Positions 6,601 through 44,700 of a stretch of 64,000 bases of DNA are shown one piece after another; position 1 is the first letter of the stretch; each line of letters starts with the position of its first letter. The translations under genes were made by a program, and so were the position numbers. Under the pieces are notes generated by a model. That model worked only from the letters and a program-made list of their open reading frames with translations. It had not been told where the DNA came from and searched no databases. The stretch comes from Ashinkailepas kermadecensis (taxonomy: Eukaryota > Arthropoda > Thecostraca > Neolepadidae): positions 164,501 to 228,500 of the forward strand of contig JAOTOM010004830.1 in assembly GCA_034440615.1 (NCBI GenBank). Reading direction: 5' to 3'.

Positions 6601-9600
6601 TCTGACACCGTCGGGGTGTCCAACTCTACCGGCCTCGACCGGCCTTTCGACGCGGCGCCGGCGGTCCCAAGACGTGCTGGATCAAGCGCGAGTTCAGAGG
6701 CGCTGCTCTACAACGAGGCCGTCGTCAGGGTGTACGTCACCGACGTCAACGACAACGCTCCGACGTTCAACGTCTCAGTCGTGCCAGTGATTGTCGGCGT
6801 TCCGTACGACGCCGGATATGGCTATGACGTCATGAAGGTCCAGGTACGTCTTTTATGGCAGTCGGTTGAGGTGCTCCGACACCCCAAAAGTCCGGTACAT
6901 TTGTGCTGAAGTGTATGCTGAGCTGAAGTGGTGCTGGTCATAGCCATGCTAATCGTTCGTTGATTTGTGTTCTGGCTTCATTTTCAACCTTAAAACAAAC
7001 GAAATAACTCTGATCACTGTATGTGCTGAGTGGAAGCTTGAACACTTGGCGTCCTTCTTGGAGCTACGTTGTCAACAGTGCATTTGCACACAGAATAGGA
7101 CATGGCACAGACACACATGAAGTCCTGGCTAGCTTCAACGATGCGCGTTGCCTTTGTAAAGCGAACCTTGACGTTTTGTATGTGCCCGATTTTGCTTTAT
7201 AGGTGCATATGCGTATTGGCTGTGGATATCATGACATAATGACCGTTGAGGCCCATCAACTGCACTACGATAATCCCACGTATCCACGTAACCACCCAGC
7301 TACCGCATCATAAGCGTTTCTAGGAAGGAATTTAACCAACAACTTTGCAGTTGCCATAAGAACAGTTCAATCCGCTACCTCCTTAATGGTGACGACCTTG
7401 AATCTGCCGCAGGCCAGCGACATGGATGCTGGTGATAACGTGACCTACACAATTGACGTCGCCGACGCCAACGTGCGGTCCATGTACAGTATCGACCCAG
7501 CGAGAGGTCAGGTAAGTCGGCTGCGGTCCATGTACAGTGTCGACCCAGCGAGAGGTCAGGTAAGTCGGCGGCGGTCGCACCAGCAATGGGTGCATGTGTT
7601 GGGTGTTGTTTGTCATTCAGTCTGGGTATAGTACAGCAACGGTACAGCAGCGGTACAGCAGCGCTACAGCAGTGATCATCTGGTACAATAGTGCAGCCAG
7701 GCAGGATGCTGGGTTTGCATATACAGCAAGCGTTATGGTTCACAAAGAAAGGGATGCGCCCCAACGTTAGATGCCAAATTTTCGACATCAGCGCGGTAGC
7801 ATTTTTATGTTGATATCCTCGTGCTTGCTGAAGAGAAGGTCTCGTTGGTTGCAGATGTGGTTGCTGAGGAGGGCCGACCAGTTGCCACAGAGGATCCACC
7901 GTCTGCAGGTCACCGCTACTGATTCTGCCAACAATACGGACGAGCTGCCGGTGCTGGTGAGCTAGAGCTCGGCGTGTGACGTACATAACAGATAATAATA
8001 ACTGAGCTATAGCACAGCAACCCGCTGTATTGGCGTTATAATGCCGGTTACCGCATCGACCTGTTGTTGAGTTATAATGCCGGGTACCGCGTCGACCTAT
8101 TGACGAGTTATAATGCCGGTTACCGCATCGACTTAGTGGCGAGTCATAACGCCGGGTACCGCATCCACATGTTGCTAAGTTATAACCCAGTCGAGGCTTC
8201 AGGCTGTTAGTGAGTTACAGCATATGGAGTATCGCACAAGGGCGCAGCCAATGGAGGGGGAGCGGCAATGGGCAGCCCCTGGAACTCTGAATGGACCCTG
8301 TGGGGCCCCATCGTTCAAGAGGGATAGGGGGCTGCTCATCTCCTTTGCCCCTCTTGCCCGAGGTACGACGGGCCCCAGAGGACCTGCTAAGGGCCAGCGC
8401 AACCCCTCAGCTATCCAGCAAGGCCCCCGCAAGAAAACCCAAGAGAGTGAATGGTCTCTACGTCATCTTCCTGAATATGTAGGAGCCCACAGGAGCTCTT
8501 GAATAGCTAAGGCTCCGCAGAGAACCTCCGAACCTCCAGCAGAGCACCCATGATGGGCGATGGGCTGGCCACTCTGACTCCCTTCCCCGGTGACATGAGA
8601 ACCCTTGAATAGCGCCGCAGGGTTCCCTCGCACCTCCAAGGGGCCGGGCCGGCCCCGGAGGAGATTAAAGGCGGGTGAGGGATGGTACCCCTCCCTTGGG
8701 TGTATGGGGGATACGGTGTAGGTGACCTGCTGATTGTAAAAACCGGTCTAATTATAAGGAGAACTGATAATTTTGTTGGTAATGATCGAGGCCCAAAAGA
8801 CCTGAGGCTCTCAAGAACGCCACCGCCTCCGCCGTTGAACGAGTCCTGGCTACGCCCTTGGTATCACATCAACCTGTTGGTGAGATTAAGGCATACTGGT
8901 AGACCACTACCAAAATACGTCGATGTTCAACAATGTTAGCCATGTCATGGCATTACCAATGACGTGACAATATCTCGCACGTGCTCCACTCGACAAACCT
9001 CACAGCAGAAATGCTTGTTCTTGAACCTCCACCCACGTGACATTGGAATCTCGGCACCACCGCGCACGTCCCGGACAGCTGCCAAGCCCGGGACCGAGCA
9101 CATACCGCCTGCTTCAAACAGGTAACGGAGGGTGGATAGGCGGTGGATAACTGTGGACAGTCGATAGGCGGCAGATAACGACGGGTATAAGATGATATGC
9201 GGCACATAACTGTGGACAGTCGATAGGTGGCAGATAACGACGGGTACACGATAGGTGGCAAATAACGGCGGGGAGATAATGGCGCGTAGACGATAGCACA
9301 TCACATTTGATTCAGGCAGATAACTGAGTAACCGATAGCTAGATAGATCTTTTTTCCTTAGCAGAGGCAAAGTGCCATCCGCTAGAAGAGTGATACGTTA
9401 AAGAAAGGACTACGGTAAACCGGCTTGTGTGGCATCCGGTATCAGGCAATCAAGAAAGGAAAGTAGGGGAACGCCGGCAAACGAGAAAAGTGGTGCAAGG
9501 GTTGGAGCACATACATATGATACAGGACATTCAGTACATACAGACACGCAGGCATTCATACACGGAAGAACATTTTAAGGATGGCCAACATCACTGCCCC

Positions 9601-41700: not shown

Positions 41701-44700
41701 CCTTGACCCCCCGTGATGGGTTGGTTGACCTTGACCCCCGTGATGGGTTGGTTCTGACCTTGACCCCCCGTGATGGGTTGGTTCTGACCTTGACCCCAGT
41801 GATGGGTTGGCTCTGACCTTGACCCCCGTGATGGGTTGGCTCTGACCTTGACCCCGTGATGGGTTGGTTCTGACCTTGACCCCCGTGATGGGTTGGCTCT
41901 GACCTTGACCCCCCGTGATGGGTTGGTTCTGACCTTGACCCCAGTGATGGGTTGGCTCTGACCTTGACCCCCGTGATGGGTTGGTTCTGACCTTGACCCC
42001 AGTGATGGGTTGGCTCTGACCTTGACCCCCGTGATGGGTTGGTTCTGACCTTGACCCCCATGATAGATTGGTTCTGACCTTGACCCCCGCGATGGGTTGG
42101 TTCTGACCTTGACCCCCATGATGGGTTGGTTCTGACCTTGACCCCCGTGATGGGTTGGTTCTGACCTTGACCCCAGTGATGGGTTGGCTCTGACCTTGAC
42201 CCCCGTGATGGGTTGGCTGACCTTGACCCCGTGATGGGTTGGTTCTGACCTTGACCCCCGTGATGGGTTGGCTCTGACCTTGGTCACCTGGGCGACATCG
42301 CCGTGACGCGTCTTGGCGGCTGCCTCCGGTGCCGCGAAGTCCAGCCAGACGCTGAGGAGGCGCGGCATCGACTCGTACACGTGTCGGCAGCCGTACTGCA
42401 GTGACTTACCTACAGGGTCACAGGTCACCTGTGAGGATATGCATGGAGTAGGGAGCCAAGTCCCCAAGCCAATATTTTTTTACTTACGACTGTTTGATAT
42501 GGTTGGTTGGTTAATTGGGTTTAGGGGCGCATCGACTGCGTTGGTCATACAGCGCCCATGGACTGTTTGATATCTTCGGTTGCCGGATGAAGTGTGATTC
42601 AGTTCGTCTGTGATTCGCAGGATTGGACCCACATCGGGTTCATGGCGGGTGACAATGAGCCAGGAATCGCATTACCTTTCAAATCGAGCACGTGCACGAT
42701 GCTATCATCCTCACTCTAACTCCATCTCTCTGAACACGGGTGCCACCTGCACCCTGAACGTCGCACTACCCCTCTCACCACCTCGTCTACCATACTACCC
42801 CTCGCCCCTCTATCACTATTTCTCCACCACGCTATGCCCTCCTCATCTAGCGCGCACATCACGCCATCCCTCTCTCCAATATCCCCAAACACTCCACATT
42901 ATCATCTAACACAAGTACCGCGCTGCTACTCAATATACGCCTTGTCACCCTGCCCACTCACCGAGCGCGTGGACCACCCTGACCCCCAGCTGGCTTCCGT
43001 CCCTACCCTCTCACCGAGCTCGTGGACCACCCTGACCCCCAGCTGGCTTCCGTCCCTACCCTCTCACCGAGCTCGTGGACCACCCTGGCCCCCAGCTGGC
43101 TGCCACCCCTGCCCTCTCACCGAGCGCGTGGACCACCATGGTCCCCAGCTGGCTGCCACCTCTGCCCTCTCACCGAGCGCGTGGACCACCCTGGCCCCCA
43201 GCTGGCTGCCACCTCTGCCCTCTCACCGAGCGCGTGGACCACCCTGGCCCCCGGCTGGCTGCCACCTCTGCCCTCTCACCGAGCGCGTGGACCACCCTGG
43301 CCCCCAGCTGGCTGCCACCTCTGCCCTCTCACCGAGCGCGTGGACCACCCTGGCCCCCAGCTGGCTGCCACCTCTGCCCTCTCACCGAGCGCGTGGACCA
43401 CCATGGTCCCCAGCTGGCTGCCACCTCTGCCCTCTCACCGAGCGCGTGGACCACCATGGTCCCCAGCTGGCTGCCACCTCTGCCCTCTCACCGAGCGCGT
43501 GGACCACCCTGGCCCCCAGCTGGCTGCCATCTCTGCCGGCGGGCAGCGCGCCCAGCAGCCGGTCCAGATACTTGGCCGTGTAGAAGTGCACGTCCTCCCA
43601 GTCCTTGCGAACCTGAGGCGGGCGGGAGAGGCACTCACTATATGTGCAGCACAAACAGGCAGCTTATATCAGGGCTGTACCGGAAGCCACCGGGAAGCAA
43701 ATCGGCAGGAGTGGTGGACAGAACAGTACCATAATCCGAATAAAACAGACTCAGACTGTGGTTTTATACCATCGGAGAGCTTAGTGCAAAGCAGGGTCGC
43801 CACCAGAGCTGTCGGTTGACAAAAAATATTATAGCAGCTCAGTGGGCATGCGATTGTGTGATTCAGGATACCTCACAGGTCAACAGATGGGACATTAGGC
43901 GATTATGGAAGCTCAGCGAGCTGTAACAACATCACACACCAGTCCACAGGATTCCATCCAGTAGGGAAAATGTCTGACGATACCAATCAGCCGACTGATA
44001 GCTGAACAGCTGACGCTCAGTTCCTGGTTTATCGATGCAATTTATACTTACCTCCGCACGGAGCCTCAGTGGCTCTCAACTCAGTGACCAGTGCCCAACC
44101 GTGAGCGCTAATATCATGCTTTGCACCCTCCCCAGGACTCTTGTCCCGTGGTACTGCTAGTTACTCGCGTTACCTGAAGCCCTGTTCACATCGCCACCGG
44201 ATGGGAGAAAAGTCCGTCCGACGTGCCGGCACTTTTACCTTATATGGTAAAAGTTTCGGTCCGGACGGCGGATATTTGTCCGGCCCGGCGCGAACCAGCT
44301 AACGCGAGCCAACGGTGAGGCCACCGCCGGACTGACGGTCCGGTCGCCGCACCTCCAATCCGTTCAGGTTCAGTCGCGCTGTACATCTCCGTCCATAGCA
44401 TCCGTCGGCCGTCTCAAGGCAGCGCAAATGATCTTTATGGTCCGGCACGCCTAAAAATCACTCCCCGTCGGCCGGCGACCGGAAGGTTTTGGCAGCTTCT
44501 GCGCATGCGCACGCCGTGACGCAATCGTTCTTCCCTGGTGAACGATTGAAAATGAATGGAAATGATTGAAAACGATTGAAAATGAAAAAGGACCGGGGAA
44601 AAAAGAGAAAAAAGATACGTTAAAAGGGAAAGAAAAAATGAACTAAACTCATAAAAAATACATGAAAAAATATATAAGATACGTTCGAAAAGAAAAGAAA

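Follow-up and report, generated by a model that had tools for sequence, protein, structure and literature searches.

Minisatellites that span exon-intron boundaries in a cadherin gene and a neighboring ATR gene

Excerpts from two papers describe "mirages" in lancelet genes, in the globins BflGb6 and BflGb9 (PMC3087553) and in PGBD5 (PMC3902484), and cite Adh3, TnC, retinol dehydrogenase, and presenilin as further carriers. According to the same excerpts, globin RT-PCR and data on Adh3 and TnC indicate that splicing in the lancelet is undisturbed (PMC3087553, PMC3902484). Because lancelet mirages are already published, junction-spanning minisatellites are not new as a kind. Here we describe such arrays in a window of 64,000 nt, the whole stretch of DNA analyzed: the repeat unit contains the exon-intron boundary at 8 of 51 splice junctions, donors and acceptors are both affected, and splice signals are kept in many copies. 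The locus is a dense, measurable case in which splice sites were duplicated up to dozens of times beside a conserved ATR gene with an apparently intact frame. As a natural experiment, it bears on how the spliceosome settles on a single site when many are identical, and on whether junctions generate such arrays or only tolerate them.

Gene models and junction-spanning copies

Two genes were modeled in the window, with 27 exons and 51 testable splice junctions (these leave out the uncertain acceptor of exon 424-620 and the 3' ends of both last exons). The 3' part of a cadherin gene occupies 424 to 20950 on the forward strand, with GT-AG borders and a frame that is open from exon 2 to the stop. 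Its exons lie at 424-620, 1052-1207, 4612-6843 (a match to Pfam Cadherin), 7413-7511, 7909-7956, 13003-13091, 15047-15205, 17006-17146, 19246-19476, and 20575-20947, followed by TAG at 20948-20950; counts took 20945, 2 bases before the last coding base, as the end of exon 10, and the same array crosses the edge either way. The C-terminal part of an ATR gene lies on the reverse strand (59786 to 23540), with exons at 59786-59663, 58601-58401, 51398-51268, 46989-46805, 45558-45431, 43612-43492, 42409-42288 (or 42279), 39276-39098, 37770-37602, 36835-36746, 36034-35880, 31353-31179, 26689-26565, 26258-26105, 25160-25074, 24844-24689, and 23713-23540. The model aligns to human ATR at 1848-2379 (E 2.6e-130) and 2409-2637 (E 1.1e-91), in the numbering of the chains shown, and no exon matching human positions ~2380-2408 was found. 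Third codon positions are very GC-rich (GC3.848). A retrotransposon protein search turned up no relative in genome_contigs or viral_contigs. Since ATR is on the reverse strand, the positions at which an earlier note on this DNA had its exons ending are donors, as that note correctly took them to be.

We sought 20 exonic plus 10 intronic bases of each of the 51 junctions in the intron alongside it (600 bases at most) and compared the matches with 300 Markov shuffles per junction. All 300 shuffles were beaten at 8 junctions (about 0.17 expected by chance), six of them donors (7511, 19476, 31179, 39098, 43492, and 26105) and two acceptors (15047 and 24844). The earlier note's central observation, that the repeat unit is the junction itself, is thus borne out and is largely real. 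Of the ten edges it listed, seven pass this strict test. The other three are a weak case at 19246, an array at 42279/42288 that hardly reaches into the exon, and 20946, where a stop codon is the likeliest reading. Donor 26105 was absent from that list and from the TRF calls.

In the cadherin gene, all on the forward strand, TRF called the repeat over donor 7511 at 7474-7576 (48-bp unit with 38 exonic and 10 intronic bases, 2.1 copies), the array over acceptor 15047 at 13730-15076 (53-bp unit, 30 exonic, ~25 copies), and the array over donor 19476 at 19442-19943 (37-bp unit, 33 to 35 exonic, ~12 copies). The weak case at acceptor 19246 is a TRF array at 18843-19256 (46-bp unit, 9 copies) that reaches 11 bp into the exon and has a strict P of 0.027. 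In ATR, on the reverse strand, TRF called donor-spanning arrays at 29740-31186 for donor 31179 (54-bp unit with 8 to 11 exonic bases, ~27 copies), at 39025-39130 for 39098 (41-bp unit, 33 exonic, 2.6 copies), and at 42946-43537 for 43492 (53-bp unit with 46 exonic and 7 intronic bases, 11 copies). Two further strict-test cases in ATR, both with approximate ends, were not called by TRF. Acceptor 24844 is spanned by a duplication (24810-24915) with a ~54- to 57-bp unit in 2 copies with an indel, and donor 26105 by a decayed array (25775-26125) whose copies comprise the end of the exon, which encodes DFNCLFNK, and the donor; the best copy matches at 26/30 positions at lag 224, and others lie at lags 47, 184, and 315. 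Exact splice 9-mers recur in the junction's own intron 24 times for 31179, 18 for 15047, 9 for 43492, and 6 for 19476, once each for 7511, 39098, and 19246, and not at all for 24844. The earlier range of 2 to about 50 copies stands at 2.1 to 26.8 for the confirmed TRF-called cases; the array of ~54 copies belongs to the unclear 42279/42288 edge.

That array (40656-42282, reverse strand, 29-bp unit, TRF) ends 3 bp beyond the exon edge if the donor is 42279 and 6 bp short of it if the donor is 42288. The two donors score 8.5 and 7.9, respectively, and both keep the frame. For 42279, matches cover about 8 of 12 exonic bases (strict P 0.023), and the intron holds 47 copies of the donor 9-mer; with 42288, only 3 to 4 exonic bases match (strict P 0.47). 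Both were tried separately, and 42288 was the edge used in the 51-junction test. The 42288 model has a 4-residue gap nearby relative to human ATR, which favors 42279 as the likelier donor. Position 20946, with an array over it at 20937-21251 (forward strand, TRF), is probably not a splice donor: an in-frame TAG follows directly, and it scores 4.1, against 5.7 to 12.7 for the 25 modeled donors from which the score was itself built. It is probably the end of the coding sequence. Both edges were left out of the splice-junction cases, and the 20946 array was kept among the edge-crossing TRF arrays counted below.

Placement, composition, and homogeneity of the arrays

TRF called 38 arrays in the two genes, of which 8 cross an exon edge (one of them at the stop) and 30 do not. 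Random placement would give about 1.2 crossings (1.15 to 1.16), and weighting by GC raises the expectation to 2.02 (P 0.0004); without the 20946 array, the 7 remaining crossings have P(>=7) of 4e-5 under uniform and 0.0025 under GC-weighted placement. The claim that exon edges are chosen more often than ordinary placement would allow therefore stands, from a post hoc test in a single window.

GC content is.649 in exons and.475 in introns, and.631 in the units of the 8 crossing arrays, compared with.539 in 26 other units (including 2 exonic arrays). Units of the crossing arrays measure 48, 53, 46, 37, 96, 54, 41, and 53 bp, so that frame sets no limit on them. Both wholly exonic arrays, at 19325-19375 and 20727-20785 on the forward strand, are in frame, with units divisible by 3 (21 and 15 bp); a frame rule for such arrays has these two cases (n = 2) behind it.

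Pairwise identity falls clearly from the half nearer the exon to the farther half at 31179 (.979/.870), 43492 (.970/.898), 19476 (.904/.859), and 15047 (.887/.839) and is almost equal at 19246 (.925/.920). The decay away from the exon proposed earlier thus holds in 4 of the 5 crossing arrays measured (the 20937 array is outside this set), including 43492, but is reversed in the other array cited for it, 40656-42282 (.862/.894). Lopsided identity also occurs in 4 of 7 arrays labeled intronic; the polarity suggesting outward growth is therefore not specific to exon edges.

Origin of the arrays

We consider it probable (roughly two chances in three) that these are mirage-type minisatellites: tandem duplications of the ordinary kind, arising at GC-rich exon edges and surviving at junctions, where the extra copies become intron. 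Short tandem duplications would be frequent in a minisatellite-rich genome and would favor GC-rich sequence such as exon edges. A duplication wholly within an exon would be purged unless it were in frame. If the duplicated stretch took a splice site with it, or extended beyond a stop codon, the coding part of the mRNA would be left unchanged, because the donor or acceptor nearest the exon would stay in use and all extra copies would be intronic. The array may then expand, homogenize, drift, and decay, an order that we propose for stages seen in the sequence as arrays and as decayed copies, the intron after 26105 holding the decayed remains of one. The junction would thus be mainly a place that tolerates duplications of exon sequence, not necessarily one that makes them. 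Use of the exon-nearest sites is consistent with the ATR model, which, when spliced there, is gapless against human ATR at 43492, 39098, 26105, and 24844 (31179 is an alignment end, outside this check), and the conserved ATR frame suggests that splicing is undisturbed.

The array over the probable stop codon speaks for tolerance, as do the junction-spanning copies at 8 of 51 junctions, the in-frame units of both wholly exonic arrays next to crossing units of any frame, the higher GC of exons and of crossing units, the 2 to 10 intronic bases in the units of 4 of the 5 TRF-called donor cases, and the undisturbed splicing described for the lancelet. Against it, the expectation rises no further than from about 1.2 to 2.02 with GC weighting, compared with 8 crossings observed. 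For tolerance to suffice by itself, duplications would have to arise roughly at least 8 times as often in exons as in introns: the expected crossings are 4.7 at a ratio of 8 (P 0.08) and 3.4 at a ratio of 5 (P 0.012). A roughly fourfold excess at exon edges is left after GC weighting and is not accounted for by the tolerance model.

That excess could be mutational and not selective if splice sites or transcription, through an R-loop, a nick, or a collision at the junction, actively triggered duplication there, a possibility that we regard as doubtful. It gains from the persistence of the excess under GC weighting (8 against 2.0, P 0.0004) and from the units of 4 of the 5 TRF-called donor cases, which end only 2 to 10 bases past the donor, counted from the outermost exonic base of the array. 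Coding-strand GC skew also leans positive, with a mean of.21 in crossing arrays (P 0.07) and.14 in intronic arrays (P 0.10). Taken as an R-loop proxy, however, the skew shows no difference between the 8 crossing arrays and the 24 intronic ones (Mann-Whitney P 0.74), which counts against the R-loop-linked cause put forward in the earlier note. Donors and acceptors are both affected, 30 of the 38 arrays cross no exon edge, and the sample is small and was picked after the fact. A cause specific to splicing, also put forward earlier, is not supported, given arrays at the probable stop codon, inside a retrotransposon-like reading frame (12175-12248), and deep in introns. It is likewise unlikely that minisatellites are truly born at splice junctions, in a non-lancelet lineage, through mutation linked to the exon edge that duplicates the junction again and again; such a process may be coupled to transcription or splicing or driven by donor-like microhomology, and recursive splicing may take out the series of AG|GT units step by step.

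An assembly artefact, in which the assembler collapsed or inflated repeats and set them at exon edges, seems very improbable. The copy numbers of the long arrays come from a single assembly, but the short cases at 7511, 39098, and 24844 have only 2 to 3 copies, units differ among themselves, one array is strongly decayed, and the window contains no N. Rogers-type intron gain, in which tandem duplication of exonic AGGT segments made the introns and the arrays are leftovers, could draw on units that carry AG|GT and might fill both splice-site roles, as at 19476; in an excerpt on the lancelet globins, mirages are put forward as a source of new introns (PMC3087553). We rejected it as highly implausible: donor context does not resemble the acceptor context of its own intron in the 23 introns compared (the one spanning the missing ATR exon and the one at 59663-58601 are left out), none exceeding the null 99th percentile of 28 and the best, 26/60, lying at the 95th. 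Seeding by reverse transcription of splicing intermediates, which has nothing in its favor besides its mention in the earlier note, is barely conceivable, as the inspected copies are contiguous exon plus intron across an unspliced junction.

Comparison with described systems

In human genes in segmental duplications, as excerpted from PMC2812944, minisatellite units of ~30 bp on average also lie at exon-intron boundaries; there, internal tandem repeats change how recent paralogs are spliced and give rise to new introns in them, whereas here the ATR frame is apparently unchanged. Intron gain by AGGT tandem duplication, in excerpts of PMC3443670 and PMC2891723, shares the tandem duplication involving AG|GT; unlike in that process, donor and acceptor contexts do not match here and an existing junction is spanned.

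With the lancelet mirages, as the excerpts portray them, the present arrays share tandem copies of exon-intron boundaries at donors and acceptors, units of tens of bases, two to several copies, AG/GT kept in many of them, and an apparently intact gene product. In the lancelet globins, boundary units are left out of homogenization (PMC3087553). The present locus differs from those excerpted cases in having several arrays in two neighboring unrelated genes (8 of 51 junctions), up to ~27 copies, an array over a probable stop codon, another that has strongly decayed, and a GC3 of.848, which seems high for a lancelet. If the host is not a lancelet, mirages would be a wider animal phenomenon than the excerpts of PMC3087553 and PMC3902484 suggest.

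Gene models and other features of the window

Two incomplete genes lie in the window: a cadherin gene on the + strand, represented by its 3' part, and ATR on the - strand, represented by its C-terminal part. Exon borders were fixed from reading frame, GT-AG and homology, and the 27 modelled exons have GT at 25/25 donors and AG at 27/27 acceptors. Cadherin exons 2 to 10 form a single open frame closed by TAG. In ATR, the exons between 58601 and 31179 join into a single open frame of 552 codons that matches residues 1848 to 2379 of human ATR (E 2.6e-130), and those from 26689 to the stop match residues 2409 to 2637 (E 1.1e-91); exon(s) equivalent to human residues ~2380 to 2408 were not found. 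The gene content marks the source as an animal. GC3 is.848 over both genes, and the GC content of the window is.519. Runs of TGACC (CTGACCTGACC) occur just upstream of ATR acceptors 46989, 26258 and 24844 (-), the expected branch point location.

The reverse-transcriptase region of a non-LTR retrotransposon, which we take to be CR1-like, occurs in two similar copies at 1571-4045 (+) and 53884-55530 (-), the second with a Pfam RVT_1 match. Two opposed reading frames of similar sequence at 32803-35243 presumably resemble a Penelope-like element ending in GIY-YIG; a Pfam search of 33918-35240 gave no match. We also detected tRNA-Leu(AAG) (28638-28721, -), tRNA-Gly(GCC) (56364-56434, +), a weak tRNA match (21510-21570) and, by TRF, two large minisatellite arrays (60518-61996 and 62473-64000) that lie upstream of the modelled ATR exons and outside the junction tests.

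Tandem copies at exon-intron junctions

Each junction query (20 exonic plus 10 intronic bases) was searched for in the neighbouring intron over a stretch of at most 600 bases and scored against 300 Markov shuffles. Eight of 51 junctions exceeded all 300 shuffles: cadherin donors 7511 and 19476 (+), ATR donors 43492, 39098, 31179 and 26105 (-), cadherin acceptor 15047 (+) and ATR acceptor 24844 (-). A second test, which scored the length of match reaching into the exon, returned the identical eight at a score of at least 8, plus the coding end of cadherin exon 10; swapped-exon controls reached 8 in 3 of 1,920 cases. Exonic bases make up 46 of 53 bp of the repeat unit at 43492, 38 of 48 at 7511, 33 to 35 of 37 at 19476, 33 of 41 at 39098 and 30 of 53 at 15047. 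Across the 54-bp array at 31179 the ATR frame stays open for hundreds of codons (a 457-aa ORF, 30099-31472, -), and splicing from an inner donor would therefore insert 18-residue repeats but no stop codon.

The earlier note had named ten edges. Seven are confirmed, namely all of the eight except 26105, which it overlooked; there, the intron following the exon that codes DFNCLFNK holds decayed copies of that exon's end, which match it at 26, 24, 22 and 20 of 30 positions (lags of 224, 47, 184 and 315, respectively); 0 of 3,000 simple shuffles equaled the best of these. Its other three edges are weak or doubtful. Acceptor 19246 gave P 0.027 in the first test, with an exonic overlap of 6 bases ungapped or 11 by TRF. 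The 40656-42282 array runs 3 bases past the ATR exon edge at 42279/42288 or ends 6 short of it, depending on which of two donors applies. The supposed donor at 20946 is most likely a stop codon, given the in-frame TAG, the AATAAA downstream at 21776, and a donor-like score of 4.1 versus 5.7 to 12.7 for the 25 modelled donors from which the score was built.

TRF found 38 array loci in both gene spans, eight of which cross an exon edge (seven without the stop edge). Under a null model in which the founding unit falls anywhere except wholly within an exon, 1.15 are expected (P about 5e-5); GC content is high in both crossing units and exons, and GC-weighted founders raise the expectation to 2.02 (P 0.0004 for eight, 0.0025 for seven), all of these P values being optimistic because the test was post hoc on a window picked for the pattern noticed there. 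The claim that arrays favor exon edges beyond chance is supported with that reservation. Decay of homogeneity away from the exon holds less generally: in four of the five crossing arrays measured, each with at least nine units, similarity is clearly higher among copies close to the exon than among distant ones, and it is nearly equal in the fifth, but the gradient is reversed at 40656-42282, and four of seven arrays labelled intronic are lopsided too.

Origin of the junction arrays

We postulate that the junction arrays most likely reflect tolerance of duplications. Tandem duplication strikes many places in the window, including the frame at 11913-12527 (-), which contains an 18-bp-unit minisatellite (12175-12248; TRF and ORF) and looks like the upstream part of the reverse transcriptase of a second, decayed retrotransposon (9974-12527, -); the adjoining frame at 11498-12028 carries RVT_1 (Pfam). 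Both wholly exonic arrays have in-frame units (21 and 15 bp). Where a duplication carries the splice site along, the first donor or last acceptor would stay beside the exon and the remaining copies would become intronic, and frame would no longer be a constraint; the crossing units measure 48, 53, 46, 37, 96, 54, 41 and 53 bp. ATR aligns to human ATR without a gap at 43492, 39098, 26105 and 24844, which fits the extra copies being intronic.

An array over the probable stop codon is predicted by tolerance and not by a splicing-specific cause. Among the causes the earlier note had suggested, an R-loop-linked one finds no support in GC skew, which did not separate crossing from intronic arrays, and reverse transcription of spliced RNA is disfavored by the copies read, which hold contiguous exon and intron sequence. 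Introns born by tandem duplication should have matching donor and acceptor contexts, and 0 of 23 introns exceeded the 99th percentile of a mismatched-pair null. A mutational preference for exon edges may nonetheless contribute to the excess, because pure tolerance reaches the observed count comfortably only if the exonic duplication rate is about 8 times the intronic rate or more, for which GC by itself is insufficient.

Comparison with known mirages

Tandem repeats of exon-intron boundaries, called mirages, are described in lancelet globin genes, in a report that cites an earlier case in Adh3 (PMC3087553), and likewise in lancelet PGBD5, to which the authors add TnC (PMC3902484). In human segmental duplications, minisatellites at exon-intron boundaries are described as altering splicing (PMC2812944). 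In the features testable here, with the host taxon set aside, the window arrays correspond to mirages as described in lancelets. The density of cases and the decayed example at 26105 are additions to the lancelet mirages, and a host outside lancelets would, if true, be a further one.
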